Assembly: GCA_032622095.1 (NCBI GenBank) | Contig: CP136066.1 | Coordinates: forward strand, 174,095,164-174,159,163 | DNA: 64,000 nt | Direction: 5' to 3' | Source of the DNA: Siphonodentalium dalli | Taxonomy: Eukaryota; Mollusca; Scaphopoda; Gadilida; Siphonodentaliidae | Shown here: positions 8,792-54,884 of the stretch, piece after piece | Layout: every line of letters starts with the position of its first letter | Position numbering within the stretch: position 1 is the first letter of the stretch | Position numbers and translations under genes: made by a program | Notes under the pieces: generated by a model | The model's database searches: none | Told to the model about the DNA's origin: nothing | What the model saw: only the letters and a program-made list of their open reading frames with translations

Positions 8792-9029
8792 TTAACCCTT
8801 TGAGTGCCAGGGAACGATCTCATCGGCCCTAAACCTACAAAATAAGTCTGTTAAAGAATATAAGAATAAATTATTAAAATTGTAAAAAATTGTAATAAAA
8901 AAAAGGTTAGGCCAATGCATTCTCTTATATATGCGAGGCGACCTATGGTCGACTCGCATATATAAGAGAATGCATTGGCACAGGGTATATGGGTTGATAC
9001 AAAAATCGACCTGGCACTCAAAGGGTTAA
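8792..9029. mobile_element. TT-2 element (TTAA, 238 bp)
   Basis: Ends TTAACCCTTTGAGTGCCAGG and complement, with a single 66-bp hairpin core (8911-8980) and AT-rich spacer. Outer arms share 'tttgtatcaacccatat' with TT-4. Confidence 0.88.
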
Positions 9030-9108
9030 AAATAATAACATTTATTGTAAAATTTATTATGTTTTACCAGAGAATATATTTGAAACGTTCAGGAAAAAGA
9101 ATGCATAA

Positions 9109-9484
9109 TTAAAGACATATTATGTACTTGTTCGGGTGCGTGAAACTGATCAGTCAGTATTCAGGAGCTATGCCAACTGGAAGAATGTAGCATTCTACTG
9201 ACATCGCCGAAAATTTCAAGCAAATCGACAGTATGACTCTATAGGAAACATCAACCGAACTATGCTCAATTGTAAATATTTATTTCTCGATTCGGGACGC
9301 AACTATTGGTGATAAACTAACAAAAATGATTTTGCCACCAAGAGTCACTGCGTTTAATTAATATATAAGAATGATGGTGTGTGTTGTCAATTTGGATATA
9401 ATATTTGTAAAAACAACTACTTTGAGCAAGATATTCTCAAATTCTATTTGAAAAACCCTACCGGAGTGTTTCACATCACTTTAA
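9109..9484 (+). mobile_element. TT-7 element (TTAA-bounded, two copies in window)
   Basis: TTAAAGACATATTATGTACT at the left and tttcacatcactTTAA at the right. Most of its 376 bp matches, inverted, the sequence at 57524-57918 (e.g. ccaactggaagaatgtagca, cgattcgggacgcaacta, catcactttaa). Similarity stops at TTAA on both sides in both copies, which defines the element. Apart from TTAAAG the ends are not repeats of each other. No coding capacity. Confidence 0.65.
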
Positions 9485-9685
9485 GCTCACAAGTAAAAGT
9501 ACACAATTTCATTCCAGACACGGAATTGATGGGAACGAGACGATAATACGGTTTCACAATGTCAACAATATACAAGATAAACTTCCAGACTGATACATCG
9601 AACCAGAGGATTGTCAGGATGACATCGTATAAAAGATCTACGACGATCAGATCAAGTCTACACTTGGTATTACCCATAGTGTACA

Positions 9686-9902
9686 TACAGTAATGCCCAA
9701 AATAATCGACTCCTTAACCACAGCAGAATTATGGGTAACTTTTCAGGATTTAGTTGGAAATATGGCTTGTTGCCATTCATCGGAAAGATCTCGGGGAGAG
9801 CTTTCTGATTAATGGCAACAAGCCATATTTCCGAATAAATCCTGAAAAGTTACCCATAATTCTGCTGTGATTAAGGAGTCGATTATTTAGGGCATTACTG
9901 TA
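9686..9902. mobile_element. TA-1 copy
   Basis: Complete, with ends TACAGTAATGCCC and GGGCATTACTGTA. Confidence 0.92.
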
Positions 9903-10200
9903 CTATAGCAATATGTCACAGTGGTTGATGATCATAGGAAGAAATTAAATTCACGTTCAATGGGTATTACTTTTTGTCAGGGGAAGTAACCGAGCTAATA
10001 AATAAACATGCCGGAATATAGCGAACCCTCGGAGGGAGGAAAATAAGATATAGAAACGTAGTAGCAATCAGTCTTCGCTGGAAAATAAGAGAATTGTCAT
10101 TCGGGAGACCATATTAAAAGAGTGCGTAGAAATTTATGTTTGTCAATGAGTTTTAAGTTCTAAGGGCTTCGGTTTCAATCTACGGGCCAATAATAATTAG

Positions 10201-10400
10201 TTAACCCTTCCATGACTGGAGCTTCCTGATATTTTGCGAAAACCCTGTGCCAATGCATTCTCTTATATATGCGAGTCTCCCATAGGGAGCCTCGCATATA
10301 TAAGAGAATACATTGGCCTAACAATATTTACTTTGACCTTGTAAGCTAGTGCATTCTCGTATATATGTGAGGCTTCCTATATAAGAGAATGAACCGGGCC
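10201..10400. mobile_element. TT-3 left half
   Basis: TTAACCCTTCCATGACTGGA followed by a good hairpin core (10250-10316) and the first part of the second. The matching right end may be the fragment at 11402-11475, with about 1 kb of other sequence between. Confidence 0.78.
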
Positions 10401-10859
10401 TTTAGATTGGAGTAATTTGGGCACATTAGGGTGAAGCATTGTTCAGCCTGGTAGGAGAATATTTAAAAATTGGGACCAAATTTTTGTTTGCATTTTATTT
10501 CCAAGAATGATAGATTCCGAGATAATATTTCATTGATATCAATGGCATATTATTTAGTGTTTTTCAGTAATACAAGAGGTACGCTGTCGCGTGGCATTTG
10601 CCCCCGACCGTATCAATTCGGATTAAGCATGGACGAAACTGCGGATATCTGAGGAGGTCTATATGACCATTCCAAAAGAAGTTCGTACAGAAATGTTGAC
10701 TAAAAACCCACCGACTAAAGTCAGGAGGCATATCTTTTGAGTGCACAAAGGCCAAAACTCTCTTTGTTTATACTGAAACATTTCACACCACTTTAGTCTT
10801 TACCAATACCATTGGAAGTGTGAGTCATGTAGTAAAATTGTATATAAAATTATAAAAAC

Positions 10860-11297
10860 AAGCGATCCGGAAACCAAAAAACAAGCGAAAATTCAAATTT
10901 TCTAAGTTGAAAAAAAAGCCATAACTCTGGCAAAAATCATCAGATCATACCCAAATTCGCACTTGACATGTATTTTCATATAACTGATCCACAAAAAAAC
11001 GGGATTTGCAATCGTACCACCAAAGCTCACGCTATCATCTGGAAACCAAAAAAAACAAGAGAAAAATTGAATTTTCTAAGTAAAAAAAGGGCCACAACTC
11101 TGGTGAAAATGGGTGGACGAAAACCCGCGCTATGCATGTAGCTGTTCCCCCATGCTGCTCTATCACCATACCAAATAACAGCTAAATCTGCCAAGCGGTT
11201 GCTGAACAATAATGCAAAATGTTTGTACGGACGTACGGACAGACGTACGGACGGAGACGTCGACTATATACCCGCCGACTTCAAGTCGGGGGCATAA
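10860..11297 (+). repeat. Family-N repeat with microsatellite and terminal hairpin
   Basis: Two units around gccataactctggcaaaaat, then cggacgtacggacagacg and the hairpin ccgacttcaagtcgg followed by ggcataataaa. Non-coding. Confidence 0.7.
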
Positions 11298-11401
11298 TAA
11301 ACCTAGCTAAGCAATGACAAAAATAGCATTTTCATGTTTATTTTGGGCACTTTTCCGTATTTTGGGCACAACATTTACCAACTTAAATTTGGAGGAATAC
11401 A

Positions 11402-11475
11402 TGTATAAAGGCCTGATGAACTGGCATAGGATCTTTAAGGCTGCTCCAGCGTTGCTCCCATCATGAAAGGGTTAA
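11402..11475. mobile_element. TT-3 right end
   Basis: ctggcataggatctttaagg ... cccatcatgaaagggTTAA, the usual right terminus of TT-3. Possibly the partner of 10201-10400. Confidence 0.7.
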
Positions 11476-11552
11476 AGATGCTCCGTCTCTCCCGTTATCA
11501 CTTTCAACAACAACAAAATTTCTGTGCAACTCCTTTTCAAGGCACATTTCGA

Positions 11553-11894
11553 CTATTACATGTATTACCAAAAAACACCAACTATTACATGTATTACCAA
11601 AAAACACCAACTATTACATGTATTACCAAAAAACACCAACTATTACATGTATTACCAAAAAACACCAACTATTACATGTATTACCAAAAAACACCAACTA
11701 TTACATGTATTACCAAAAAACACCAACTATTACATGTATTACCAAAAAACACCAACTATTACATGTATTACCAAAAAACACCAACTATTACATGTATTAC
11801 CAAAAAACACCAACTATTACATGTATTACCAAAAAACACCAACTATTACATGTATTACCAAAAAACACCAACTATTACATGTATTACCAAAAAA
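11553..11894 (+). repeat. 28-bp minisatellite, about 12 units
   Basis: Unit ctattacatgtattaccaaa-aaacacca, nearly identical throughout. Because 28 is not a multiple of 3 and the unit has no stop in any forward frame, all three frames stay open (up to 146 codons); these are not genes. Confidence 0.95.
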
Positions 11895-12508
11895 ACACAA
11901 TAGAAATGTCTTATGTTGCACACATTTCATTGAAGAGTGTTTTGATAAATAGATTTCTTGTAAAAAATATTGTAATGTTCTAAAAATAGCCACATTTTCT
12001 GTCCCAGTTTATAGAAAATAACGAGAGACTCTCTGAATCAAATTTGCTATTGTATACCCTCAAATATATACAGAAAGTTCAGAAAAGAGTAGTTACTTGA
12101 TAGTATTTGTTCATTTGTAGCTATATTAAACCTATTTAGCAGAACATCCCTACAAATGAATACAACAGGGTTTCTATGCCTGTTGTCTGCTTATATAATC
12201 TGAACATGATGATAACTACAAATGAAGAATTGGTTATCCAATTGTCTCGACTTGAAAATAAGCTTTTTATCTAGGGGCTAAAGAGTTTGTAAAAATTCAT
12301 GCTTGTCAAATGAGTTCTAAGTTCAAATCATTCTTTCTTGTGGGTTTCCTTTCCGTCTGAGGGCAAATAGAATTTGTTAATCCTTTGATAACTGAATATT
12401 TTGTGATGTGTAGTTTATACTTTATTCCCAGTCTTTTGTAAGGATGTTCAGCTGATAAGTTCAAACATAAAACTTCAGGATGTTCGCTGAAGGATGACCC
12501 CCTTAACC
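11895..12508. other. Unassigned DNA with possible TT-5 traces
   Basis: Short TT-5-like pieces (gcagaacatccctacaaatg at 12140; gatgttcagctgataagttc at 12444) in otherwise featureless AT-rich sequence. Confidence 0.4.
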
Positions 12509-12953
12509 TTAAAGGTACTCAATCCTATCAGATGGTCCCCATATCATCAAGTTACAACAACAACAACATTTCTTCAAAATACGCTTTTGTTATCAGAATC
12601 GATTAACTACAACCAAATAATGCAAACCGCTGTAAACTATTGTATAAAATTTCCCAAAATGTGTTATTTATCAACATGTTGTTCAACGAAATATCATTTG
12701 AGTATCACAAAATTTGGCCATTATTATCACTTCATTTTAGAGTTATCCATCTTCATCCGCAATTTTGTCCGAGACCGTTGATTTGATGGCCACAAATAAT
12801 TACTCATTTCAAGAAATAGAAAATTTCAAAAATCGATATCTGATCACTCTGGGCTTTGATGGGTGGGTTCCTTGACTTGAATCAAATATTTTGTACTCCC
12901 GAAGCCAAATAAATAGTAATTTGGGAGCGTCATTTCAGATTATGCATCTTTAA
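12509..12953. mobile_element. TT-6 element
   Basis: TTAAAGGTACTCAATCCTAT at the left, gattatgcatctTTAA at the right; same interior order as 5012-5412 plus the ggagcgtcatttcagat tail. Confidence 0.8.
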
Positions 12954-12957
12954 CATT

Positions 12958-13522: not shown

Positions 13523-13903
13523 CAAGCCTTGAAATAGGGTGTCTGTCATTTGCAGAATGAGGTCCCCAGAGGGTGAATTTAGTGATGCTACCCCGCATAG
13601 CGGGCTAGCGTCACCAAATTCACCCTCTGGGGACCTCATTCTGCTTACACCTCAGCAGAATGAGGTTCCCAGAGGGTGAATTTGGTGATGCTAGCCCGCT
13701 ATGCGGGGTAGCATCACTAAATTCACCCTCTGGGGACCTCATTCTGCAAATGACAGACACCCTATTTCAAGGCCTATTTCAGCAGAATGAGGTTCCCAGA
13801 GGGTGAATTTGGTGATGCTAGCCCGCTATGCGGGGTAGCATCACTAAATTCACCCTCTGGGGACCTCATTCTGCAAATGACAGACACCCTATTTCAAGGC
13901 TTG
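13523..13903. mobile_element. HP8 variant with three hairpins, 8-bp duplication
   Basis: Ends CAAGCCTTG...CAAGGCTTG with the target duplication CCAATAAT (13515-13522, 13904-13911). It lacks the usual interior: the left hairpin is followed by a short spacer and the right hairpin with its tail (gacagacaccctatttcaag), and that unit is then repeated in tandem. Confidence 0.92.
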
Positions 13904-14720: not shown

Positions 14721-14749
14721 CATTGAATCAAACAAGAGATCAGGCTGCT

Positions 14750-14997
14750 TTAACCCTTTGAGTGCCAGGTCCGATTTTTGTATCAACCCATATACCCTGT
14801 GCCAATGCATTCTCTTATATATGCGAGTCGACCATAGGTCGCCTCACATATATAAGAGAATGCATTGGCTTAACAATTTTTTTTAAATTTTTTTTTACAA
14901 TGTTTTACAATTTTAATATATTTTATTATATTCTTTAACAGACTTATTGTGTAGGTTTAGGGCTGATAATATCGGCCCCTGGCACTCAAAGGGTTAA
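14750..14997. mobile_element. TT-2 element
   Basis: TTAACCCTTTGAGTGCCAGG...TGGCACTCAAAGGGTTAA, hairpin core at 14799-14870. Its right TTAA (14994-14997) is also the left TTAA of a TT-5 fragment. Confidence 0.88.
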
Positions 14998-17020: not shown

Positions 17021-17478
17021 CAAGCCTGAGTTTAGTGTGCCTGTCATTTGCAGAATGAGGTCCCCAGAGGGTGAATTTAGTGATGATATCCCGCATAGCG
17101 GACTAGCATCACTAAATTCACACCAGGGGACCTCATTCTGCTTAGGCCTATTCTTCTCTGGAAATTTCTTTATTATCAAATTTCTATAAAATCTTCTTCA
17201 CATAGATTCTTCTTTTTTTTAGTTTAGTTTCTCTATATTCCCAAATTGGCAGACGACACATTGCATAATCGAGGTTCCCAATGGGTGTACATCACAATAT
17301 TCACCATTTGGTAACTTAAATCTGAGTCTATGTCTCCCATAGCAGATGAGGCCTAAGCAGAATGATGTCCACAGAGGGTGAATTTAGTGATGCTAGCCCA
17401 CTATGTGGGATAACGTCACTAAATTCAGCCTCTGGGGACCTCATTCTGTAAATGACAGGCACACTAAACTCAGGTTTG
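17021..17478 (-). mobile_element. HP8 element, complete, in TMEM63 intron 1
   Basis: Ends CAAGCCTGAG...CTCAGGTTTG with perfect target duplication GGCAGAGA (17013-17020, 17479-17486). Both hairpins are present; the second arm of the left one has lost a few bases. Confidence 0.92.
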
Positions 17479-17670: not shown

Positions 17671-18070
17671 TTAACCCTTTACCCAACAAACCGGCCAAAA
17701 CCGGCCAAATAAAGCTTCAACAGCCTAAAATATCTTCGGTCTGTCTCAATAGAACCATACAAATATGCATATCATTGGAATCGGCTCATTGACCACATTG
17801 TGATAGTTACAGTTATGCCCTGTGCCAATGCATTCTCTTATATATGCGAGTCGACCATAGGTCGCCTCGCATATATAAGAGAATGCATTGGCCTAAAAAA
17901 AATATTTTTTTAACACTTTTTACCATTTTTTCTTACATTCTTTAACAATTTTATAATATTTAATGTGTTAAGCCAATGCATTCTCTTATATATGCGAGGC
18001 GACCTATGGTCGACTCGCATATATAAGAGAATGCATTGGCACAGGGTCGTTCTGTTGGGTAAAGGGTTAA
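17671..18070. mobile_element. TT-1 element (TTAA-bounded, 400 bp)
   Basis: Ends TTAACCCTTTACCCAACA and its complement. One flank carries ccggccaaaaccggcc and about 150 bp of unique interior; the other is short. In the middle two 66-bp hairpin cores (accaatgcattctc...gagaatgcattgg type; 17822-17890 and 17972-18040) face each other across an AT-rich spacer. TTAA with CCC-type ends fits piggyBac-like MITEs. It sits in TMEM63 intron 1. Confidence 0.88.
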
Positions 18071-18294
18071 TGCATGATCAAGTTTGGTACGGCCATGCAG
18101 TAAATAAATTCTGCTCCATTCACATCTATGCGCTCAACGAGTTAAAGGTCATTCATTACCTTATTAACAGGGCCATGTATTATATCATTGTGCAAATATG
18201 GTTTCTATTTATGGATGAGGTTATTTCTGAGCGAAAGTGGAAATGGCCGACATGATGCAAATGTGATTACAATGAGTATCTATCAGTCAGAAAT

Positions 18295-18347
18295 AAACGA
18301 GAGGCCGATCACGATCGGCAGATGTTTAACCCATACCTTGGCGATAG
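18295..18347 (+). repeat. 53-bp conserved block, copy 1
   Basis: AAACGAGAGGCCGATCACG ... CCATACCTTGGCGATAG. Identical over 53 bases to 58295-58347 and 61540-61592, while the flanks differ. Includes a perfect stem GCCGATC-ac-GATCGGC. Role unknown; it lies in TMEM63 intron 1 next to a decayed family-N repeat. Confidence 0.85.
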
Positions 18348-18763
18348 TGATCAGCTATTTTCAGTTTGGACGTAAAAATCCATAAGCCATAACTCCGTTT
18401 AAAAAAAAATGGATCAAACCCAAATTCGAACTACAAAAATCCATACAAGTGAAGGGGATATAATAGGAGAATGATTACATGAAAAATATACAAAAGCATA
18501 AAGTTGATGACCAGGGTTAACAATTTTAACTCTATAAAATTAGGGGACTGTACCAGGTATGTCACTTGAATACTGCATTGATAGGCTAAACCAGAGAGCT
18601 ATGTGGGAGTTGATAAACTCTGGCCAACACTGTCCACACACTATGGAAATGCAATAAACAACAGATGGCTATTAAGTCATTTTATATGTGCAGCAGTGAG
18701 CATCAGATATCATATTATAGGACTTTGTAACTTTAGAAAAATAGTGCTACTAAATGGGGTTCT

Positions 18764-20937: not shown

Positions 20938-21167
20938 TTAACCCTTTCATGACGAGAGCTGCGCTGGGCAGCATTAAATATCATGTGCCAGTGTATTCTC
21001 TTATATATGTGAGTCTCCCATAGGGAGCCTCGGATATATAAGAGAATTCACTGGTTTACAAGGTCAAGGTAAATATTGTTAAGCCAATGCATTCTCTTAT
21101 ATATGAGAATGGGAGACTTGTTTATAAAAAAGAGAATGCATAGGCCCAGGGTTTTGTCATGGAAGGT
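20938..21167. mobile_element. TT-3 element, right TTAA lost
   Basis: TTAACCCTTTCATGACGAGA at the left; two hairpin cores (20988-21055, 21084-21146) joined by cttaca-aggtcaaggtaaat. The right end stops at tgtcatggaagg. It lies upstream of the TMEM63 start exon. Confidence 0.78.
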
Positions 21168-22520
21168 GGTGCAGAGGTGTCTTGTTTCCATATTAGTTAG
21201 CAATGGAATATTTTTCAAAAAACTAAATGTTCGATAAACCAGTTGTAAACACAAATGTTATCAAATATGGTAATCAGAAAATAGCCATTACGCATGCAAA
21301 ATTCATTGCACCAGACCCATATTCAAACCTGAGTATTTTTGACTGCTAAACACACATACCAACTTTGGTTTCAATCAAATAACTCAAATTGGAGTTATCG
21401 ATAAAAAACTGAATTGTTAAGACAGACAGACAGAAAGATGGACGGATAGAGACTGATAACATAATACAAATAAAAGGCATAGAAACATTAATCTTGTTTT
21501 GTTATTGCATCATGTTCTTTATTTAGTTCTCTGAATGTTCCCTTCCTCAGCTTCCTGTAGGTTACAGTGAAGAAATTTGATTGGTAGCGCCCTCCAATGG
21601 ATTTTGGGCTAAGATGCAGGTATAGAATTAAAAACATTCTGACCCCTGGTTGGTTAATAGTAGCTTTGATGTTTAAACATATAAAATACATGCAATCACT
21701 CCTCTTGAAATTTCAGACCACAAACAAAACATTGTCACATTGTAAAGCATGTGGTTCCAAGTTTCAATTTGTTTGGTGTGAGGTAAAAAATGTCAATATT
21801 TTTTTTATGCAATTCTGACTCTAGATTATAAATCTGAAATTTAAAGGTACATTACCCAACTATATGATTTTTTTTCATGCAGAAAATTTGCTGCGGATGC
21901 CAATCCTGGTGATCATGTAGTCATTTATCACAATTTGTGGATATTCAGGGCTGCAGGTCTATGTGATATAATTACTTCACTGTAACATGTATCAATATAG
22001 CTAGCTCAGTTGTAACACTGAGACTCTGTAGATAATCATCTCTTACAGCCGCAGCTGATAATTATCCACTGATTGTCACCGAGGTGACCCATAATTTGTA
22101 TCAACAATACATGGTTACGACCGATCTATATCAGCTTACCCTGGGAATTTCCATAAAACAACTGTCCCTGCGAAAATCTAATAACAACCACATGAGAAAA
22201 TCAATTGCTCAAACACAGATACCATGAATATTTCATCACAGTGAAACCACAGACCATATTGTTGTATTTGCAATGGTGCTAGCATGTTTTATGTTTAATT
22301 GACAAAGCAATCAATTTGTCACATACAGCTTCTGTTCTGCATTCTGGTGTATCGGTTATGTACGAGGTACATACGATTGCTAAATTGATCCCACCAAGTA
22401 TACATTAGAACGGTACATTCTATATTTGTAGGGATGTTCAGATACTAAAAGCAGACCTATGGTAAACAGAGAAACAATCAGACCTCGAAATATGGTCCTG
22501 GACATTTGCAGACATTAATA
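21168..22520. other. DNA upstream of the TMEM63 start exon
   Basis: Family-N remnant at 21300-21450 (accaactttggtttcaatca, gacagacagacagaaag). A possible small exon at 21717-21785 (see findings). Repeat-like ttaaaggtacattacccaac at 21840. A TT-5 fragment around 22385-22470. Confidence 0.45.
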
Positions 22521-22737: not shown

Positions 22738-22763
22738 ATTAATCACTGAATTAATATACAAGA

Positions 22764-22908
22764 TCAGGGTAAATATTGTTAGGCCAATGCATTCTATTAT
22801 ATGTGCGAGCCTGCCAGGCTCCCTATGGGAGACTAGCATATATAAGAGAATGCATTGGCAAAGGATCTTTAATGCTACACCCGAGCAGCTCCTGTCGTGA
22901 AAGGGTTA
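22764..22908. mobile_element. TT-3 right half
   Basis: Starts at gatcagggtaaatattg, has one hairpin core with a longer apex (22785-22858) and ends cctgtcgtgaaagggTTAA. The left half is missing, apparently removed together with the right end of the TA-1 copy at 22521. Confidence 0.75.
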
Positions 22909-22917
22909 AAGGGTATA

Positions 22918-23564: not shown

Positions 23565-23784
23565 TACAGTAATGCTCTATAAAATAATCGGCTCCTTAAC
23601 CACAGCAGAATTATGGGTAACTTTTCAGGATTTAGTTGGAAATATGGCCTGTTGCCATTCATCGGAAAGTTCTCAGTGAGAGCTTTCCGATGAATGGCAA
23701 CAAGCCATATTTTCGACTAAATCCTGAAAAGTTACCCATAATTCTGCTGTGGTTAAGGAGCCGATTATTTAAAGCATTACTGTA
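23565..23784. mobile_element. TA-1 copy
   Basis: Complete; TACAGTAATGCTCTATAAAA ... AAAGCATTACTGTA, arms over 95 percent complementary by eye. Confidence 0.92.
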
Positions 23785-23956
23785 ATCAGTCAGTATTCTG
23801 TTATCAAACAGTTATGTGACACAAGGCCCATGTTATCGGATACTGAGGGTGCGTGCTATCCAGACTAATGAACGAGCAATTGATCTTCTATCACCACTCT
23901 TTGGTATCACACAGTTCAACAGATTTATCTATCCAGTGATTGGTTTCTCTCTGCTC

Positions 23957-26153: not shown

Positions 26154-26595
26154 CAAGCCTGCAAATAGTGTGTCTGTCATTTGCAGAATGAGGTCCCCAG
26201 AGGGTGAATTTAGTGATGCTATCCTGCATAGCGGGCTAGCATCACTAAATTCACCCTCTGGGGACCTCATTCTGCTAAGGCCCTCAACAGCTATGGCAGA
26301 CCTAGGATCAGATTGAAGTTCCCCAGTTGAAGTTGATGTTCACCCATTGGGCACCTCAATTATGAATTTTATCTTCTGCAAATTAGGGGATATAGAAACT
26401 TCTTAGAAGGGAAATGTAACTAAAAACAATGTTAATTTGATACTATAGATACTTCCCAGAAGATGAGGCCTAAGCAGAATGAGGTCTCCAGAGGGTGAAT
26501 TTGGTGATGCTAGCCCGCTATGCGGGATAGCATCACTAAATTCACCCTCTGGGGACCTCATTCTGCAAATGACAGACACGCTATTTGCAGGCTTG
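26154..26595 (+). mobile_element. HP8 element, reference copy
   Basis: Complete: CAAGCCTGCAAATAGTGTG at the left and its complement at the right, both hairpins full length with the CCCGC/GCGGG apex, and interior with gacctaggatcagattgaag. Target duplication GAAGCCAT at 26146-26153 and 26596-26603. The stems are nearly perfect, suggesting recent activity. Confidence 0.94.
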
Positions 26596-26747: not shown

Positions 26748-27147
26748 TTAACCCTTTACCCAACAGAAGGGCCCTGTGCCAATGCATTCTCTTATATATG
26801 CGAGTCGACCATAGGTCGCCTCGCATATATAAGAGAATGCATTGGCTTAACACATTAAAAATTATAAAATTGTTAAAGAATGTAAGAAAAAATGGTAAAA
26901 AGTGTTAAAAAAAGATTATTTTTAGGCCAATGCATTCTCTTATATATGCGAGGCGACCTATGGTCGACTCGCATATATAAGAGAGTGCATTGGCACAGGG
27001 CATAACTGTAACTATCACAATGTGGTCAAGGAGCCGGTTCCAATGATATCCATATTTGTATGGTTCTATTGAGACAGACCGAAGATATTTTAGGCTGTTG
27101 AAGCTTTATTTGACCGGTTTTGGCCGGTTTGTTGGGTAAAGGGTTAA
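26748..27147. mobile_element. TT-1 element, reverse orientation
   Basis: Same structure as 17671-18070 and also 400 bp; the long unique flank (ccggttttggccggtttg) is on the right. Two inverted 66-bp hairpin cores at 26768-26845 and 26925-26994. TTAA on both sides. Confidence 0.9.
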
Positions 27148-27481: not shown

Positions 27482-27918
27482 CAAGTCTGATTATAGCATG
27501 CCTGTCATTTGCAGAATGAGGTCCCCAGAGGGCGAATTTAGTGACTCTATCCCGCATAGCGGGCTAGCATCACTAAATTCACCCTCTGGGTACCTCATTC
27601 TGCTTTAGGCCTCATCTTCTCTGGAAAGTTTCTTTATTATCAAATCTCTATAGAAACTTCTTTACATAAATTCTATTTCTTTTTTAGTTTTATATAATAG
27701 TTTCTCTATATCCCCAAATTGGCAGATGACACATTGCATAATCGAGGTTCCAAATGGGTGTACACACAATATTCACCATTTGGGAACTTCAATCTGAGTC
27801 TATGTCTCCCATAGCAGATGAGGTCATGCAGAAAGATGTCCCCAGAGGGTTAATTTGGTGATGCTAGCCCACTGGGGACCTCATTCTGCAAATGACAGGG
27901 ACACTAAATTCAGGCATG
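27482..27918 (-). mobile_element. HP8 element with shortened right hairpin
   Basis: Left end CAAGTCTGATTATAGC, right end ...CAGGCATG. Near-perfect target duplication TTACTATT / TTGCTATT (7 of 8). The right hairpin lost its apex and one arm (gctagcccactggggacc). Confidence 0.88.
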
Positions 27919-27973: not shown

Positions 27974-28544
27974 AAAGCCTTGAAATAGTGAGTCTGTCAT
28001 TTGCAGAATGAGGTCCTCAGAGGGTGAATTTAGTGACCCTATCCTGCACAGTGGGCTAACATCACCAAATTCATCCTTTGGGGACCTCATTCTGCTTAGG
28101 CCTCATCTTCTTTGAAGTATCTATAGTCGTTTCATATTTTATTGAGCATCCCATATATACATTTCAAACAAATTTGTTTATAATAGACTAATGCAGGATG
28201 AACAAATGGGGATTGGAGCATAAGTTATAGAATCTTAGGTGGAGCTCCTCTTAAATTAAAATTGTTTTTAGTTACTTTTTCCCTTCTGTTCAGTTTCTAT
28301 ATCCCCTAATTTGCAGAAGATAAAATGTATAAATAATCAAGGCGACTAATGGGTGAACATCACCCACTTCAACTGGGGAACTTCAATCTGATCCTAGATC
28401 TCCCATAGCAGTTGAGGCCTCAGTAGTATGAGGTTCCCAGAGGGCAAATTCGGTGATGCTAGCCTGCCATGCCGGATAGTATCACTAAACTCACCCTCTG
28501 GGGACCTCATTCTGCAAAAGACAGACACACTATTTGCAGGCTTG
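27974..28544 (-). mobile_element. HP8 element with extra interior sequence
   Basis: Ends AAAGCCTTG...GCAGGCTTG with target duplication AATGTATC / AATGAATC (7 of 8; 27966-27973, 28545-28552). The interior is about 130 bp longer than in other copies owing to AT-rich sequence around 28110-28250. Confidence 0.85.
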
Positions 28545-28620: not shown

Positions 28621-28988
28621 TTAACCCTTTACCCAACAGAAGGGCCCTGTGCCAATGCATTCTCTTATATATGCGAGTCGACCATAGGTCGCCTCGCATA
28701 TATAAGAGAATGCATAGGCTTAACACATTAAAAATTATAAAATTGTTAAAAAAAGATTTTTTTTAGGCCAATGCATTCTCTTATATATGCGAGGCGACCT
28801 ATGGTCGACTCGCATATATAAGAGAATGCATTGGCACAGGGCATAACTGTAACTATCACAATGTGGTCAAGGAGCCGGTTCCAATGATATCCATATTTGT
28901 ATGGTTTTATTGAGACAGACCGAAGATATTTTAGGCTGTTGAAGCTTTATTTGGCCGGTTTTGGCCGGTTTGTTGGGTAAAGGGTTAA
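28621..28988. mobile_element. TT-1 element, shorter spacer
   Basis: As 26748-27147 but about 30 bp are missing from the AT-rich spacer between the two hairpin cores. TTAA on both sides. Confidence 0.9.
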
Positions 28989-30128: not shown

Positions 30129-30387
30129 TTAACCCTTTCAGTGCCAAGTCCCATTTTTGTATCAACCCATATTTCCTTGATCATTTTTTTTCAAATTTAT
30201 TGATTATAATAATGTGATACATTGATGGAAAGAGCTCCAATTGATTATAATACTGTGATACATTGATGGAAAGAGCTCTAAGAGCTCTTTCCATCAATGT
30301 ATCACATTATTATAATCAATAAATTTGAAAAATGATCAAGGAAATATGGGTTGATACAAAAATCGGACTTGGCACTGAAAGGGTTAA
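30129..30387. mobile_element. TT-4 element inserted in TT-5
   Basis: TTAACCCTTTCAGTGCCAAG and complement. Near the apex a segment (gatacattgatggaaagag) is duplicated, lengthening one arm. It lies inside the TT-5 at 29979-30505. Confidence 0.9.
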
Positions 30388-32307: not shown

Positions 32308-32530
32308 TACAGTAATGTCCTAAATAATCGACTCCTTAACCACAGCAGAATTATGGGTAACTTTTCAGGATTTAGTCGGAAATAAGGCTTGTTGCCATTC
32401 ATCGGAAAGCTCTAACTGAGAGCTTTCCAATGAATGGCAACAAGCCATATTTCCGACTAAATCCTGAAAAATTACCCATAATTCTTCTGTGGTTAAGGAG
32501 TCGATTATTTAGGGCTTTATAATTACTGTA
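32308..32530. mobile_element. TA-1 inserted in a 31-bp repeat monomer
   Basis: TACAGTAATGTCC ... AATTACTGTA. The flanks are gggaccaacc and gaaggcgacttggga, i.e. the two halves of the minisatellite unit found at 30600-31024, so the insertion site (TA in ccTAgagg) and the TA duplication are directly visible. Confidence 0.92.
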
Positions 32531-34347: not shown

Positions 34348-34552
34348 TTAACCCTTCAACGACTGGTACTTCCTGAAATTTGTTGAAAACCCTGTGTCAA
34401 TGCATTCTCATAGGGAGCCTCGCATATATAAGAGAAGACATTGACCGAACAATATTTACATTGACCTTGTAAGCCAGTGCATTCTCTGATATATGCACTG
34501 GCACAGAATCTTCAATGCTGCACCAGCGCAGCTCCCTTCATGAAAGGGTAAA
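34348..34552. mobile_element. TT-3 element, degraded
   Basis: TTAACCCTTCAACGACTGGT at the left, ttcatgaaaggg at the right with the final TTAA mutated to TAAA. Both hairpin cores have lost an arm. Confidence 0.78.
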
Positions 34553-39388: not shown

Positions 39389-39600
39389 TTAACCCTTTGA
39401 GTGCCAGGTCCGATTTTTGTATCAACCCATATACCCTGTGCCAATGCATTCTCTTATATATGCGAGTCGACCATAGGTCGCCTCGCATATATAAGAGAAT
39501 GCATTGGCCTAACAATTTTTTTTTTTTTTACAATTTTAATAATTTATTCTTATATTCTTTAACAGACTTATTTTGTAGGTTTAGGCACTCAAAGGGTTAA
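39389..39600. mobile_element. TT-2 element, shortened right arm
   Basis: TTAA at both ends, hairpin core at 39440-39510. The right arm lost part of the inner repeat (ggtttaggcactcaaaggg). Confidence 0.88.
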
Positions 39601-40656
39601 CACAGTTATCACTCCAGATGCAGATATTGTTCACAGCTAGAGCTCTTACATTTTAGTTGTTGATAAAACAGGACCTTTACTGTTTATCTCATGTCTTAGA
39701 ATAGGAGGGTGTGGATGGTTGTCTTCCTTTTATCAAGTCACGCATGAAACTACCAGAGCACACCAGCCATATTTAGCGCAGGTTTTTCCAGACAAATTGG
39801 TGAAACCGATCGACCCAAGTCAAATTTCCTATGTGCTTTGAGAACAATTCCCACACTGAAAACTTATTGAGAGAATGGAGGATCAGAGCGGTAGTTTTGT
39901 TGATGATTTTTGCATGCTCCTTAGCAAAATGGCAGCAAATTAGAACTCTTGTCTTTGACTTGCCATGAATGCTATCGTCCATGTGCATTTAGACTTTTGT
40001 GTTGATAAAATAATTGGAAAACCAAATCACACCGTTTCACAATATAGTTCTTTGGTTCTAAGAGGGACTTTACCTTTCTTATGGTACGAAATTACACAAA
40101 TTTTGGTCGATATTTTGTGTGCTAAATAAGCACAAATGTTGCTCTGTTCGCGTGGTATATATAATAATATTGCAGAAGTCCACCAAATGTGGGTAAAATG
40201 TCACTGGTAGCAGCGGTAAACCCTGCATGGAGTTTGGTAATAAATATTAAAATTAATAACTTTTAGCCTGGATTATTACTATATATAAAATATATTTTTT
40301 TGTATAAAAATGGATAATTCTGGAAAATAATTGAGGTGGGGATCGAGGGCTATAGTAAGAAGTTTAGACTGTACCTCGGGACTCTGGGACTCCAGATTGA
40401 TGCTAATGTTAATTAAAATGTATTGATTTATCTTGGCACAGTTATGATTCTAGATGTAAACTTGTTTACAGTGTATACTCAGTTGTTAATGAACCAGTGA
40501 CCTCGACAATCTGCTGCCATGAAATATCAGGTCACAAACATCATTAAGAGGCTTAAAATTAGAAAATAACCGAGATACATGTATCTAGGATATGGCAGTA
40601 ATTGTTCTGTAATAGAAAATGCAGCAGCTCAGGAAAGTCAGAAAGAATTTTAACTT
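39601..40656. other. Unassigned DNA
   Basis: A 71-codon minus-strand frame (39773-39988) has no recognised motif. A short repeat (gggactctgggactccag, ttaattaaaatgtattgatt) resembles 39343-39388. Confidence 0.45.
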
Positions 40657-40923
40657 TTAACCCTTTCATGACAGGAGCTGCGCTGGTGCAGCATTAAAAA
40701 TCATGTGTCAGTGCATTCTCTTTATATATGTGAGTCTCCCATAGGGAGCCTCAAATATATAAGAGAATTCACTGGCTTACAAGGTCAAGGTAAATATTGT
40801 TAGGCCAATGTATTCTCTTATATATGCGAGGCTCACTGTTGGAGACTCGCATATAAAAGAGAATGCATTAGCACAAGGTTTTCGCAAAATTTCAGGAAGC
40901 TCCAGTTTATATGGAAGAGTTAC
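40657..40923. mobile_element. TT-3 element, inverted
   Basis: TTAACCCTTTCATGACAGGA, two hairpin cores (40709-40775, 40804-40872), then ttcaggaagctcc. The right terminus has decayed to ggaagagttac. Confidence 0.8.
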
Positions 40924-41983: not shown

Positions 41984-42627
41984 GGTCAAGTGGTCCTGTT
42001 AATGTACTATGATGCATTGGGTCCTGCTGAATTGATATGATGTTGTTAGGGCAAACTGATGCTGTTAGCAAATAGTACCATTATATTTTTTTAATTTGCC
42101 TTTTTTCGCGGTGTTCTTATAATCTTAACATATACAGGAAAAGCCATTCATATCAAACATTCAAAAACATATTTATTGCAAAATATTTTTAATGTTTGTA
42201 TTAGTTGTTGAAAATTTACTATAATCAAGATTGTTATTCATGTCCTTTTAGAAATACCAGCACAGCTATGTTCTTGAATGCTTCGTACACTCACTGTGGT
42301 TTTTTTCTCAAATGCTCGGATTAACCAACCACCGCGAAAATGACAACTTTAAAAAAAACTAACGGTACTTTTTCGTAATGGCAGCAGTTTGCACTACCCG
42401 CATCATAGCAATTCAGCAGGACCACCAGTATCATAGCATATTAGCAGGACCACTTGACCAGGGGTGATAACATGGTGAGGAATCACATGGTTTTGAGGTT
42501 GGTGAGTACCATGTATTCAAAAACGTAATATATAAAAAACATATCATTTTGACTCTTATTTTTAAAATAAATTGATATCTTCTTTGTTCGGAAATAACTT
42601 CCTGACATCATCTATCAATTAGTCTGC

Positions 42628-42714
42628 CGGTAGCCTCGCATATATAAGACTCGCCTATATATGAGAAGGCACTGGCACAGGATTTCAACACTGCACCTGT
42701 CACGAAAGGGTTAA
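42628..42714. mobile_element. TT-3 right-end fragment
   Basis: A collapsed hairpin core followed by ggcacaggatttcaacact and the terminus cacgaaagggTTAA. Confidence 0.7.
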
Positions 42715-43435: not shown

Positions 43436-44958
43436 TCACCTCAGGCGCGTTGAGTCCTGGTCGACACCAGATCGTTAACCAGATGGAGGATTCTCAACAA
43501 TAAAGGTACATCTCAGGCCTGTGTGAGTCCTGGTTGACAGCAGATCATTAACCATACGGAAACTTCACAATAATAAAGGTACAGCTCAGGCCTGTGTGAG
43601 TCCTGGTTGAAAGCAGATCGTTAACCATACGGAAACTTGACAATAATAAAGGTACATCTCAGGCCTGTGTGAGTCCTGGTTGACAGCAGATCATTAACCA
43701 TATGGAAACTTCACAATTATAAAGGTACAGCTCAGGCCTGTGTGAGTCCTGGTCGACAAAAGATCGTTAACCATATGGAAACTTCACAATTATAAAGGTA
43801 CAGCTCAGGCCTGTGTGAGTCCTGGTTGACAAAAGATTGTTAACCAAATGGAAACTTCACAATTATAAAGGTACAGCTCAGGCCTGTGTGAGTCCTGGTT
43901 GACACCAGATCGTTAACCATACAGAAACTTCACAATTATAAAGGTACAGCTCAGGCCTGTGTGAGTCCTGGTTGACACCAGATCGTTAACCATATGGAAA
44001 CTTCACAATTATAAAGGTACAGCTCAGGCCTAAGTGAGTCCTGGTTGACAGCAGATCATTAACCATACGGAAACTTCACAATTATAAAGGTACAGCTCAG
44101 GCCTGAGTGAGTCCTGGTCGACACCAGATCGTTAACCATATGGAAACTTCACAATTATAAAGGTACACCTCAGGCTAATGTGAGTCCTGGTCGACACAAG
44201 ATCGTTAACCATACGGAAACTTCACAATTATAAAGGTACAGCTCAGGCTAATGTGAGTCCTGGTCGACACAAGATCGTTAACCAAATGGAAACTTCACAA
44301 TTATAAAGGTACAGCTCAGGCCTGTGTGAGTCCTGGTTGACACCAGATCGTTAACCATACAGAAACTTCACAATTATAAAGGTACAGCTCAGGCCTGTGT
44401 GAGTCCTGGTTGACACCAGATCGTTAACCATATGGAAACTTCACAATTATAAAGGTACAGCTCAGGCCTGAGTGTGTCCTGGTTGACAGCAGATCATTAA
44501 CCATACGGAAACTTCACAATTATAAAGGTACAGCTCAGGCCTGAGTGAGTCCTGGTCGACAAAAGATCGTTAACCATACGGAAACTTCACAACAATAAAG
44601 GTACACCTCAGGCATGTGTGACTCCTGGTTGACACCAGATCGTTAACCAAATGGAAACTTCACAATTATAAAGGTACAGCTCAGGCCTGTGTGAGTCCTG
44701 GTCGACAAAAGAGCGTTAACCATACGGAAACTTGACAATAATAAAGGTACATCTCAGGCCTGTGTGAGTCCTGGTTGACAGCAGATCATTAACCATACGG
44801 AAACTTGACAATAATAAAGGTACAACTCAGGCCTGTGTGAGTCCTGGTTGACACCAGATCGTTAACCATATGGAAACTTCTCAATTATAAAGGTACAGCT
44901 CAGGCTAATGTGAATCCTGGTCGAAACAAGATCGTTAACCAAATGGAAGATTCTCAAC
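43436..44958 (+). repeat. 73-bp minisatellite, about 21 units
   Basis: Unit runs from gtgagtcctggttgacacca through gatcgttaaccatacggaaa to cttcacaattataaaggtac and agctcaggcctgt. The first and last units share a variant (gattctcaaca) missing from the middle, as expected if the array grew from within. It abuts an HP8 right half. Confidence 0.95.
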
Positions 44959-45109: not shown

Positions 45110-45392
45110 CCTTCAAAAGTTGTTAGTCCCTGCATGACAGAGCAAGCTGCATTAAAACTAAGTGTGCAAGTGGTGTGTTAGTCGATATTGTCTGAATAAA
45201 ACAAGATAATGATCCATGTGAGATCAATGTGTGAATTTTGTATGGTGGCGTTCTCCCGGCCGGGCCTCAATACACGACACATGAATATTAAAAGTAAAAT
45301 TGTTCAACGCAAAGGTGGACAAGTATAGTTCAATATTTAAACACAAAATATGGCCATCATTGAATTATTGACTATCAATTATAAATGTGTTC

Positions 45393-45820
45393 CAGTCGAT
45401 GCATAATAAAATGGCACATCTAGGATCCTGTCCAGTCAATGCATAATAAAATGGCACATCTAGCATCCTATGTGTTCCAGTCAATGCATAATAAAATGGC
45501 ACACCTAGGATCCTGTGTGTTCCAGTCAATGCATAATACAATGGCACATCTAGGATCCTATGTGTTCCAGTCAATGCATAATAAAATGGCACATCTAGGA
45601 TCCTGTGTGTTGCAGTCAATGCATAATAAAATGGCACATCTAGGATCCTGTGTGTTCCAGTCAATGCATAATAAAATGGCACATCTAGGATCCTGTGTGT
45701 TCCAGTCAATGCATAATAAAATGGCACATCTAGGATCCTGTCCAGTCAATGCATAATAAAATGGCACATGTAGGATCCTGTCCAGTCAATGCACAATAAA
45801 ATGGCACATCTAGGATCCTG
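45393..45820 (+). repeat. 45-bp minisatellite, about 10 units
   Basis: Unit tgttccagtcaatgcataat-aaaatggcacatctaggatcctgtg; three units are 36 bp (tgtgttcca lost). Both lengths are multiples of 3, so long frames stay open on both strands (105 and 120 codons). No start context or homology supports a gene. Confidence 0.95.
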
Positions 45821-48028: not shown

Positions 48029-48053
48029 CTATTTACTACTGTTATATTGTTAT

Positions 48054-49160: not shown

Positions 49161-49426
49161 ATTGTTATGTGGAATCCGACCTTATGTTATTGACTATTAT
49201 CAAGAATTATTATATGATCATAAACTTTCTTCCAAAGGTCCCATACTAAATCATTCGAAAAAGGAATTGATAAATCACGATATCTACTGGATCTTCTTAT
49301 AAATATGAATGATGGGTTAATAACAAGCTCATTCGATGTCATGAATAATTAAATTAAATTTGACTTGTTGAATCACATTGTTGTGCATTTGATGGTTAAT
49401 GTAAATATATACATGGGTCAGTCAGT

Positions 49427-49608
49427 TACAGTAATGCCCTAAGTAATCGACCCCTTAACCACAGCAGAATTATGGGTAACTTTTCAGGATTTAGTCGGAA
49501 ATATGGCTTTCCGATGAATGGCAACAAGCCATATTTCCGACTAAATTCTGAAAAGTTACCCATAATTCCGCTGTGGTTAAGGAGTTGATTACTTAGGGCA
49601 TTACTTTA
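49427..49608. mobile_element. TA-1 copy, left apex deleted
   Basis: TACAGTAATGCCC at the left; gggcattacttta at the right. The left arm jumps from aatatggc to tttccgatgaatgg. Confidence 0.88.
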
Positions 49609-50571: not shown

Positions 50572-50595
50572 TATCAAGGTTTAGTTGCATATACA

Positions 50596-50746: not shown

Positions 50747-50750
50747 TAGA

Positions 50751-51162: not shown

Positions 51163-51187
51163 TTGCATTTACATCGACTTTATCCCA

Positions 51188-51352
51188 ATGAAAATGAATC
51201 TTTCTGCACCTGTATTATCTGTTCATCCTGGTTCATCTGCCTGTTTTCTGCTTATATTTCCTGAACATCCATCCAGATGAATAATAAATCATTCCAATGT
51301 ATACTTTAATAACTGAATGGGAGTATCCATTATTCAGTAAAGAAAGGAATAA
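51188..51352. mobile_element. TT-5 right half
   Basis: aatctttctgcacctgtatt ... ccattccaatgtatacttta ... agtaaagaaaggaataa. Lies just beyond the 28-bp array at 50751-51162. Confidence 0.7.
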
Positions 51353-51441
51353 ATGCCAGAGTTATATAATTTTTAATTTTTTTACACTGTGAAATTACTG
51401 AAATCTGGATAGAGAGACGTTGAAATAGACAAAGTCAAAAC

Positions 51442-51607
51442 AAGTTACTGCAAACCCATGTAATTACGATATTGCAGGATATTCCGATAATGACATCATG
51501 TTACCGCGGAGCTGTATCATGGGAATGTCACTCTGAGTAAAGCTCCAGACAGAAAGAGGATTTGGTATTTGATTTAAATGGGTGCGTCTTGTTTAAAGAT
51601 ATGTTTA
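51442..51607 (+). repeat. Direct repeat pair, right copy
   Basis: aagttactgcaaacccatgt ... gtcttgtttaaagatatg. Partner of 50171-50344. Confidence 0.85.
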
Positions 51608-53215
51608 AAGGGTCGTGGCGGTTTGCAATCTCAAATTTTACCTAGTAATTCCCCCCCATACTCTGCAATACCGAGGTCCAAAGTACATGTAGGTCAATTA
51701 TGGCAACTACATGATCTACATTTATATCAAATTTATAAGCCAGAATATTATAACTTTTTGTCTTCGGTAAATTTGGTTAATACTTGGGTTAAGAGAGTCC
51801 AATTTAAGTTTACAATAATAATGTGTCCTAGTATACAGATAAGCAACCTCACCACTGACCCATTAATATCAATTATATAGCAGAGCTGTCAAAATATCAC
51901 AGGAATTGTTTATGTTGAACACTGACCTCTCTATTAAACCAATAACAATTATAACTAGAATGCACTCACTGGAGCTGCCTATACTTGCGCCCATCACACA
52001 TTTGACATGTTTTGTTTTGTCTTACCAACACCACTTTGAACCACGGGTGTTGGCTCCTCGTTTGAGAGATCGATAAAAACAAATCTAGATATCAAATCTC
52101 AGTTCATTCATCGCTGAAATATTTGTGTTTACGGACAGACTATTTCAAGTTGATCTATTAAACTAATGATACGTAGGAGTTGTTTGACATATTTATAGAA
52201 CAATAGAGACATCGTTTACATGAAGAGTGTGAAGATGATTGATTGCCGATGATGCTAATATATATTATATACCAATTGGGTTAAATTACTAGTTTGACTA
52301 GAATGATGTCAAGCGTGTATGCCATAGCACTTCAGCGGCAAAAAACGTCAAAGTAAGTTACAAATACCGACACAAATAAATAAAAGACATGCGACCACGC
52401 GAACAGTGTGTCAATGTGAGCATGCCCTTATAGCGACTGATCTATACAGTCTTCGGGAACATATCATCAAAATGTCTATTGCATTGAAAATGAGAAAGGT
52501 TGTTTTCCCAGTTAATTAATAGGGCATTTAATAATCCGATTGTTTCAACATTCACATTTTTCAGTGCAATTGTTTCTCAATTGAACCACGCGCTCGACTG
52601 TTGGCCGGACATGATTTATATGTACCATGATCTTTTGAAAATGTTTTGAACTTCAAAGAAACTTTCGAGAAATATGTTCGCACCTCACTGTCTCTGCGAA
52701 AAAAAAACTATTCCGCGCGCATCTTTTAGACATGATCTAAACACATTTCCCGTGTTTCAAGTTACATAAAATAGGCTTCTAATGGGCAGTACTATTGCCC
52801 ACTTTTATTTTTCATGCAGTATATATATATTTATAATAATAGAACACGAAGTTGTTGGCAGTTAGAATGGTTTAGCCTGCCCGTGCAATACGGGTCTCTG
52901 CTGTCTGGACATCGACGCGAAAATGTCTGGTGTTTTGCGCGCCCATGTAGCTTGTGACGTCCTGATGTGCATCATGACGTCATTGCGTCTTGATCGGTTT
53001 CCAGAAAGAAATCATTCAATATTGTTCATTTATGAACGATTTATAACCAAAATAAAACCAGATAACAATGCAAATTAAGTATATATGTTGATATAAATTA
53101 CAATTGATGCAACCATTTCATATTATTCCGTGTGCATAGTTTACAGTATGTACTTCCGGTATGACGTAACATATTCACGGAAGGACAGACAACAGACAAA
53201 GATCCGCACCGAAAA
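51608..53215. other. Repeat-poor DNA with CRE-like sites
   Basis: The longest repeat-poor stretch in the right half. It contains TGACGTCA at 52975-52982 and TGACGTAA near 53163, and a GC-richer patch at 52875-52995. No exon recognised. A regulatory role is only a guess. Confidence 0.35.
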
Positions 53216-53252
53216 CATTACTTGCGTCCAGCATGGACTGGCGCAAGTAATG
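53216..53252. repeat. Short hairpin with CATTACTTGCG ends
   Basis: CATTACTTGCG-t-CCAG...CTGG-CGCAAGTAATG, a 15-bp stem with one bulged T. Single copy here; purpose unknown. Confidence 0.6.
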
Positions 53253-53459
53253 ATATCAGACCATCTGAAGATATAACTCTGCAGCACAGATGTCCAAGTC
53301 TACTGCTAATATCATGTGATGTTTATTGTTGAATCTTTATTTTAAATTAGATGCCATAGCCTTATGTATCAGATTATTTGCACATTGGCATAAGAGACAT
53401 CAGAAAATAATATAGCCTTATCAATAGCTAAGTAGTCCAAAGGCAATTGGTGAATTGGA

Positions 53460-53600
53460 TTTAATGTTGCTCCAAACAGATTTACCAGTACATAACACAA
53501 GATTTTGGACCGATTTAATCAAATTTGGTGTGGTGATTCGGGGTACCCTTGGCAGAGTTATAATGGTGTTAGTTTTCAATTTTTTTTAACTTATTTAAAA
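53460..53600 (-). repeat. Family-N2 repeat, inverted
   Basis: Reverse complement of the block at 16250-16385 (ggaccgatttaatcaaattt, ggtgtggtgattcggggtac). Confidence 0.65.
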
Positions 53601-53764
53601 AAATTAAAGGGACACATTGGAAATCTTTTTATCATAATCATCAATATCTAAATGAAAACAAATGACAATGTCAATGACATTTTTTTTTATTATTATTATA
53701 AAAGTTACAAATATTTTTTTTTTTAAATCAATTTTTTTCCCCAATTTTTTTCTCCTTTAAAATT

Positions 53765-54127
53765 AATCGGATCAAACCCATATTCGAACTCGATGTGAAA
53801 CTCACATACCAAATTTGGTTCCAATCAGATAAAAAATGTTTGAGTTATGGCAGAATGCGTGAATTCTAAGTTGAAAAAGGGCCATAACTCTGTAACAAAA
53901 TCTCGGATCAAACCCAAATTCGAACTCGATCTGTATTTTGGGCTGAGAAACCCATATACAAAATTTGGTTTCGATCGGATAGAAAATGTTTGAGTTATCG
54001 CATTACTTGTAAAGTGTCTGCAGACAGACAGACAGACGGACAGACAGACAGACGGATGAACGACGAGTGGTCAATCCGGGCAACGACACTATGTTTACCA
54101 TACTATGGTATGGGTAAACATAAAAAT
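53765..54127 (+). repeat. Family-N repeat with complete right module
   Basis: Two units, (GACA)n/(GACG)n run at 54022-54055, caatccgggcaacgac, then hairpin tgtttaccatactatggtat-gggtaaaca and AAAAA. Confidence 0.8.
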
Positions 54128-54418
54128 ATTTATTCAGCAAGAAACTGAATCTAAAATTTTTTTTAGTTTTAAATGTTTTTTTTTTAATTCAAATATTTAA
54201 ATGATCAAAATGCGTGCAAAGCACACAAATGGGCCGCCGCTGAATCAAGGCTATATCTAAGATCAAAATCACACACAGGGGCCACAGGCCCCTAATGCCC
54301 CTTTGTGCAGCAGCCACAGACCCCTCTGATGCTGAATAAAGGCTCACCAAGGCCTGTTTCAGCTAGTGAGTAATATTCCATTTCAATGTATACTTTTATA
54401 AATGAATGGGAGAATCCA

Positions 54419-54884
54419 TTAACCCTTTACCCAACAGAACGGCCCTGTGCCAATGCATTCTCTTATGTATGCGAGTCGACCATAGGTCGCCTCGCATATA
54501 TAAGAGAATGCATTGGCTTAACATATTAAAAATGATAAAATTGTCAAAGAATGTAGAAAAATATTATAAAAATTGTTAAAAAATGTAAGAAAAAATTATA
54601 AAATTGTTATAGAATGTAAGAAAAAATGGTAAAAAGTGTTAGAAGTTAAGTGTTTATTTTAGGCCAATGCATTCTCTTATATATGCGAGGCGACCTATGG
54701 TCGACTCGCATATATAAGAGAATGCATTGGCACAGGGCATAACTGTAACCATCACAATGTGGTCAATGAACCGGTTCCAATGATATCAATATTTGTATGG
54801 TGTTATTGAGACAGACCGAAGATATTTTAGGCTGTTGAAGCTTTATTTGGGCATTTTTGGCCGTTTTGCTGGGTAAAGGGTTAA
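54419..54884. mobile_element. TT-1 element inserted in a TT-5 fragment
   Basis: TTAACCCTTTACCCAACA...TGCTGGGTAAAGGGTTAA. The spacer between the hairpin cores is expanded by a repeated 'gaatgtaagaaaaaatta' motif. The left flank (54368-54418) is the end of a TT-5 element (tatacttttataaatgaatg), so TT-1 inserted into or beside it. Confidence 0.85.

Follow-up and report, generated by a model that had tools for sequence, protein, structure and literature searches.

Introduction

The closest described counterparts of the elements treated here are the CMITE families of Acropora corals, in which TTAA duplications and differing CCCT-type ends surround a 75-base interior that is more conserved than the ends, and for which the authors propose a role of this interior in transposition, according to the passages of that paper dealing with these families (PMC2872659). 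Palindromic internal sequences are also a feature of piggyBac, whose 19-bp internal repeat is described as being bound via a dimer of the C-terminal domain of the transposase (PMC7351741, PMC8086355), and internal sequences have been described as affecting the transposition of rice mPing. Here we analyse a 64-kb stretch of contig CP136066.1 from the scaphopod mollusc Siphonodentalium dalli (positions 174,095,164 to 174,159,163, hereafter the window), in which a 69-bp near-palindrome, the core, recurs within elements having different ends: the three TTAA families TT-1, TT-2 and TT-3, the GACCCGCC element, which has no TTAA, and a block at 8361-8603.

The CMITEs (PMC2872659) are a close precedent for this arrangement, as they share the TTAA duplications, the family-specific CCCT-type ends and the interior conserved across families. 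However, the CMITEs are described as being about 100 bp long and filled by their conserved region, whereas TT-1 and TT-2 measure 212-466 bp and the conserved piece is here a subterminal palindrome, present once or twice per element and also in an element without TTAA. Palindrome, subterminal or doubled position, element size and non-TTAA carrier are thus the points of difference. The text of the CMITE paper contains neither "hairpin" nor "palindrom", and the likeness is taken from its description of the elements. Like the piggyBac repeat, the core is a palindrome situated close inside the end of TTAA elements, but it is 69 bp long, begins at a distance of 30 to 153 bp from that end and lacks TGCGT (compared with the descriptions in PMC7351741 and PMC8086355). 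Two further systems share some features. The highly conserved domains of short interspersed elements (SINEs) and MER6, as described in PMC6887750, likewise combine a conserved central piece with differing ends, but the pieces in question belong to SINEs, and one of them was taken up by a mariner-derived miniature inverted-repeat element, whereas here a palindrome is spread among DNA elements. KolobokP of bivalves has TTAA duplications and a composite-like layout, but is described as having long terminal direct repeats and 5'-RR termini (PMC9587614), in contrast to the facing modules and CCC termini found here. Membership in Kolobok was considered and rejected, as the termini read CCC...GGG and not 5'-RR / YY-3', the definition given in the same source.

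The elements carrying the core

The window has an A+T content of about 64% and no reading frame longer than 187 amino acids, and inverted repeats are dense in it, with 171 pairs of 30 nt or longer within 3 kb. The core-bearing elements and two comparison elements are the following:

17671-18070, minus strand: TT-1 copy a, 400 bp, TTAACCCTTTACCCAACA ends, cores 17824-17892 and 17972-18040
26748-27147, plus strand: TT-1 copy b, 400 bp, cores 26778-26846 and 26926-26994
28621-28988, plus strand: TT-1 copy c, 368 bp, shorter spacer, cores 28651-28719 and 28767-28835
54419-54884, plus strand: TT-1 copy d, 466 bp, longer spacer and most diverged arms, cores 54449-54517 and 54663-54731
8792-9029, minus strand: TT-2 copy a, 238 bp, TTAACCCTTTGAGTGCCAGG ends, core 8911-8979
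14750-14997, plus strand: TT-2 copy b, 248 bp, core 14801-14869
39389-39600, plus strand: TT-2 copy c, 212 bp, core 39440-39508
3261-3503, plus strand: TT-3 element, TTAACCCTTYCATGACNGGA ends, left core 3302-3366 degraded, right core 3380-3462 including flanks, right end approximate
5677-6052, plus strand: TT-3 element interrupted by another palindromic repeat, one core match 5930-6009
10201-11475, plus strand: TT-3 left half with a separated right end near 11475, cores 10242-10324 and 10338-10405
20938-21168, minus strand: TT-3 element, right-type arm first, cores 20980-21062 and 21076-21152, far end approximate
22740-22909, minus strand: TT-3 discordant half, with a right-type outer arm, a left-type core with an 8-nt insertion and a left-type inner flank
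34348-34552, plus strand: TT-3 element, both cores degraded
40657-40915, minus strand: TT-3 element, cores 40700-40783 and 40797-40879, far end approximate
42620-42714, plus strand: TT-3 right-end remnant with a degraded core
61230-63841, unstranded: GACCCGCC element, 137-bp inverted end repeats, cores 61278-61346 and 63725-63793
8361-8603, plus strand: core-bearing block with neither TTAA nor GACCCGCC ends, 96.7% identical to 61267-61510
6402-6607, plus strand: TT-4 (comparison), TT-2-like left outer arm, other palindromic interior, no core
30129-30387, plus strand: TT-4 (comparison), second copy

TT-1, TT-2 and TT-3 all have TTAACCCTT-type ends, with the end sequences TTAACCCTTTACCCAACA, ...GAGTGCCAGG and ...CATGACNGGA, and the TTAACCCTT ends of TT-1 and TT-2 carry the CC[C/T]T terminal motif described in PMC2872659. 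TTAA stands on both ends of all four TT-1 and all three TT-2 copies, while the TT-3 copies are partly degraded. Each TT-1 copy has two facing cores, each TT-2 copy a single one, and TT-3, where complete, two facing cores. In the GACCCGCC element, the end repeats are 96% identical with one core in each, and the interior contains other repeats of the window; TTAA ends are absent both from this element and from the block at 8361, which corresponds to the left part of the element minus its outer arm (245 bp). A second small hairpin in this block is unremarkable on folding (z -0.29 and 0.16).

TT-4 is informative by comparison with TT-2. Both have about 44 bp of left outer arm in common, up to ...CAACCCATAT, where they diverge. 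An earlier description of this stretch made without database searches, the sequence-only reading, had seen in TT-2 the outer arms of TT-4 around the core; this holds for the left arm and for the different interior, but the resemblance is weaker in the right arms. The window's longest palindrome (6602-7072, with 235-nt arms that are 91% complementary and 1 nt between them) directly adjoins the TT-4 copy at 6402-6607.

The 69-bp core and its copies

The core reads GCCAATGCATTCTCTTATATATGCGAG - T - CGACC - ATA - GGTCG - C - CTCGCATATATAAGAGAATGCATTGGC, with a single T.C mismatch and an ATA triloop, and contains TGCGA. It runs from GCC to GGC, and the portion from CAATG to CATTG takes up 65 bp, so that the 66 bp first given to it need correction. 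As RNA, it folds at -54.3 kcal/mol (z about -14). The block common to the families extends past the core, to CCCTGT on the outside and to GGCYTAAC plus part of an AT-rich spacer on the inside.

With up to 3 mismatches allowed, the 20-base arm of the core has 46 matches in the window, 23 per strand, against 0.02 expected (mean of 100 dinucleotide shuffles), which excludes chance. A covariance model built from 20 core copies and run with filters off returned 138 rows up to an E value of 0.5, among which 27 distinct loci were assigned to the core by reading their sequences. The remaining rows are reverse-strand readings or other palindromes, since the model also scores unrelated ones and is not specific: palindromes of TT-4 and of a repeat named P2 reach, for example, 41.9 and 39.7 bits, comparable to the 47.4 of the best copy of another palindromic family, P1. 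The core loci fall into TT-1 (8), TT-2 (3), TT-3 (13), the GACCCGCC element (2) and the block at 8361 (1). The sequence-only reading had counted more than 25 copies between 8792 and 54884; this number is reached when the 7 degraded copies are added to the 20 alignable ones, and further copies lie outside that range, at 3261-8603 and in 61230-63841. It gave TT-1 two facing cores, TT-2 one, TT-3 two, and the composite the core as well, which agrees with the assignment of the copies.

Among the 11 cores of TT-1 and TT-2, 7 agree at every position of the 65 bp and each of the other 4 is one base off, which makes them too alike for a tree within the window. The idea of one core in all TTAA families applies to these two, but the TT-3 cores are a diverged variant with a different inner stem. 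Exact matches to two core patterns were absent from a collection of genome contigs which, containing few eukaryotes, is little informative; a collection of viral contigs, also with few eukaryotes and hence saying little, had no exact match to two core patterns, one satellite motif and one P1 pattern. The letters of the core were not found in the open-access literature searched.

Different ends around a constant core

Representatives of each context were aligned, namely the right units of TT-1 copies a and b, the three TT-2 copies, the 8361 block with the left unit of the GACCCGCC element, and one TT-3 left unit. Between families, 58-81% of positions are mismatched over the 30 nt outside CCCTGT. 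In contrast, the cores of TT-1, TT-2 and the group of 8361 and GACCCGCC differ on average at 0.8-2.5 of 69 positions (1-3 bases), and from those of TT-3 at 5.3-6.5. The break is sharp and lies immediately outside CCCTGT. Inside the core, the spacers of the first three groups are 22-31% mismatched, plus gaps, and the contrast between core and inner spacer has p values of 1.1e-6, 0.0018 and 0.0006, calculated from rounded averages; when restricted to the best-aligned 35 nt of spacer, the comparisons with TT-1 alone stay significant (p = 0.006). Thus, of the claim that different termini surround the same core and often the same AT-rich spacer, the termini and the core are borne out and the spacer in part. 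As in the CMITEs, the interior is more conserved between families than the ends.

Within families, the core also changes more slowly than its surroundings, with 6 of 276 columns variable as opposed to 38 of 544 outside it when pooled (p = 0.003). For TT-1, 3 of 138 core columns vary; the right arm has 14 of 153 variable (p = 0.012 against the core), the ungapped spacer 8 of 47 (p = 0.0009) and the left arm 2 of 30. This rate signal is largely due to copy d. In TT-2, a single core column out of 69 is variable and none of the 50 in the left arm, as opposed to 9 of 91 elsewhere in the element. Pairing exceeds that of shuffled cores: over 19 distinct cores, 96.1% of cells are paired (shuffled 92.9%) and both sides have changed in 17 cells (shuffled 5.5), values reached in none of 500 shuffles. 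These two-sided changes set the TT-3 cores apart from the others. Selection for pairing is suggestive only, since cells count sequences and not events, and the changes are mostly those of TT-3 against the rest.

Possible exchange within TT-3 and movement of TT-2 as a whole

Thirteen TT-3 halves, one of them without a core, were compared with diagnostic strings, counting substitutions only; in three, indels prevented typing of the outer arm. Of the nine whose outer arm and core could both be assigned to a type, eight are concordant and one is discordant. This half, at 22740-22909, combines an outer arm of right type (3 mismatches versus 15) with an inner flank of left type (2 versus 12) and a core that is of left type (1 versus 2 at each side). 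Two elements may have exchanged parts here, or the spacer of a single element may have been inverted between its facing cores.

The joined flanks of 15 core-bearing elements or blocks were searched within the window. Those of TT-2 copy c gave a junction-spanning match, 76% identical, at a paralogous near-empty site:

40384-40471, plus strand: paralogous near-empty site of TT-2 copy c, with TTGG where the filled site has TTAA

Hence, TT-2 moved as one unit. No junction-spanning match was found in the window for the other 14 queries.

A modular reading and its alternatives

These observations suggest that elements of several families are built from swappable parts. We lean, by a small margin of confidence, towards regarding them as modular non-autonomous piggyBac-like elements in which a subterminal palindrome has been exchanged between families, nearly unchanged, and probably has a role in cis. 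TT-1, TT-2 and TT-3 would be short elements of this kind, as their TTAA duplication and CCCT termini indicate, each family presumably mobilised by a transposase recognising its own outer end. The module, consisting of CCCTGT, the 69-bp palindrome and GGCYTAAC, in one or two copies per element, would be inherited separately from the outer arms, reaching other families and the GACCCGCC element through exchange at the module itself, whether homologous or by gap repair, and the active lineages would hold it nearly constant, through constraint rather than conversion. Its likeliest job would be a cis-acting one in mobility or replication, for instance as a docking site just inside the end, which is plausible given that, in piggyBac, a dimer of the C-terminal domain binds a palindromic internal repeat.

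Both origins considered in the sequence-only reading can be judged in this light. An exchange of ends around a common core is favoured by outer arms that do not match, cores that hardly differ, the sharp boundary and the one discordant half. As for a core that itself moved between families, no 69-bp core bounded by a target-site duplication was found in the window, and the one copy outside recognised ends, at 8361, lies within the 245-bp block matching 61267-61510.

Several observations weigh against the modular reading. The discordant half is one degraded copy, for which a spacer flip is possible. Between the 8361 block and the left unit of the GACCCGCC element the core is not slower (2 of 69 versus 5 of 173 outside), and between TT-2 and this block the best 35 nt of spacer, with 2 of 35 positions differing, are no different from the core (p = 0.26); the spacer is AT-rich and aligns poorly. 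Pairs with two-sided change number 5 against 3.0 in shuffles, 32 of 500 of which reach 5, and the 12 further pair types are not raised (375 of 500 shuffles as high). Docking by piggyBac alone fails to cover the GACCCGCC element, because this has no TTAA ends, and the piggyBac binding motif TGCGT is absent from the core. No transposase was found among 10 long reading frames tested, out of many in the window.

Palindromes of the size of the core are break-prone. The strongest rival, which we hold to be possible but clearly the less probable, builds on this: the core would have no job, and breaks or stalls at the palindrome would lead to ectopic gene conversion between elements, keeping the cores alike and joining them to new ends. 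The mostly near-identical cores of three groups amid wholly different surroundings fit this, as does the discordant half. However, the T.C mismatch near the tip is present in 14 of 14 TT-1, TT-2, 8361 and GACCCGCC cores, even though correction from arm to arm should remove it; the break falls constantly just outside CCCTGT and not at random points; and the changes in young copies are few and confined to one arm, which indicates that arm-to-arm correction is not fast.

Simple descent, with one ancestral TTAA element whose ends drifted while the core was kept, seems unlikely to us. The three families do share a common plan (TTAACCCTT - variable arm - CCCTGT - core), and ends less conserved than the interior were likewise seen by the CMITE authors, in the part of PMC2872659 that compares them. 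But the outer arms are no more alike than unrelated sequence all the way to the boundary, the core-less TT-4 has the left arm of TT-2, and the GACCCGCC element has no TTAA end.

Slightly more doubtful still is a module that is itself a mobile element, starting (A)CCCTGTG and inserted into several older elements. The outer boundary is identical and sharp in TT-1, TT-2, the left ends of TT-3, the GACCCGCC element and the 8361 block, and this block, lacking the GACCCGCC arm, would suit such a unit. Nevertheless, a solo module with a target-site duplication was not found in the window, TT-4 and TT-2 differ by a replaced interior and not by a clean insertion, and the inner boundary varies among families. 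Retention of the hairpin as a small-RNA or microRNA-like precursor is very improbable: the stable fold and relaxed Rfam matches to hairpin precursors (19 of 21 rows microRNA families) speak for it, but any comparable palindrome would fold likewise, those matches stay far under the gathering score (best 39 versus 90 bits) and no Rfam family reaches it anywhere in the 64 kb.

A hairpin tip in common with P1

The P1 repeats (464-584, 1148-1272, 7593-8019, 13523-13903, 17021-17478, 26154-26595, 27482-27918, 27974-28544 and others) have ends beginning CAAGCCTG... and contain 93-bp palindromes, three of them in tandem in the copy at 13523-13903. All six facing end pairs have 8-bp duplications, four exact and two with 7 of 8 positions, as in hAT-like elements. 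One of them serves for comparison:

26154-26595, unstranded: P1 element, 8-bp duplication GAAGCCAT, two facing 93-bp palindromes with core-like tip architecture

In its strict form, TC-NNN-CATAG-N'N'N'-GC, the tip is found 20 times, in 16 core copies, 4 P1 copies and nowhere else in the window, being absent from the palindrome families P2 and TT-4; the two GACCCGCC cores miss it because of tip mutations, and in some P1 copies C.C replaces T.C. Under the covariance model, P1 copies score about 9-15 bits higher with the ATA reading than reversed in the four best cases. A naive model of a random one-mismatch triloop palindrome gives p of about 7.6e-6 for the full tip and about 0.003 for ATA plus the mismatch position, values that are too small because the pattern was picked after being seen. 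Homology of core and P1 arms found no support (score 5.5, whereas shuffles averaged 7.0 and 1492 of 2000 scored at least as high), also with flanks (17.0 versus 15.1, 663 of 2000), and neither did structural constraint within the P1 copies, with 1 pair changed on both sides versus 2.4 in shuffles and no covariation.

This tip stands in TTAA piggyBac-like elements, in hAT-like elements with 8-bp duplications and, slightly mutated, in the GACCCGCC element, on arms and inner stems that differ. We would not expect, but do consider, that the tip (T.C mismatch, 5-bp C-NNN-C stem and ATA triloop), and not the arm sequence, might be the conserved functional part, a portable structural signal across superfamilies, recognised by a protein of the host or of the element while the hairpin is extruded or single-stranded.

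Other repeats of the window

P2 comprises wholly palindromic repeats ending CAGTAATGCCCTAAATAATCGACTCC, without the ATA tip (9686-9902, 32308-32524, 23570-23790, 49424-49608 and 3010-3190); they apparently adjoin TA and are, on this ground, possibly mariner-like. Tandem arrays are formed by a 73-bp unit (20.7 copies), a 29-bp unit (11.8 copies, 100% match) and a 45-bp unit (10.0 copies), at 43440-44948, 11552-11894 and 45386-45820, respectively. Some tandem repeats of the window are reminiscent of molluscan ones. A repeat of 56-59 bp, 98% identical across three places (61539-61597, 18294-18352 and 58295-58350), holds TTTAACCCATACCTTGGCGATAG beside the short palindrome GCCGATCACGATCGGC.

Implications

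If the tip were indeed read across superfamilies, it would represent a cis-signal of DNA transposons independent of any single transposase. More generally, non-autonomous DNA elements are usually classed by their ends, the interior being taken for leftover filler. An interior outlasting its ends, both in corals and in the unrelated-looking set described here, whose palindrome is well defined, turns the function of that interior into a testable question.

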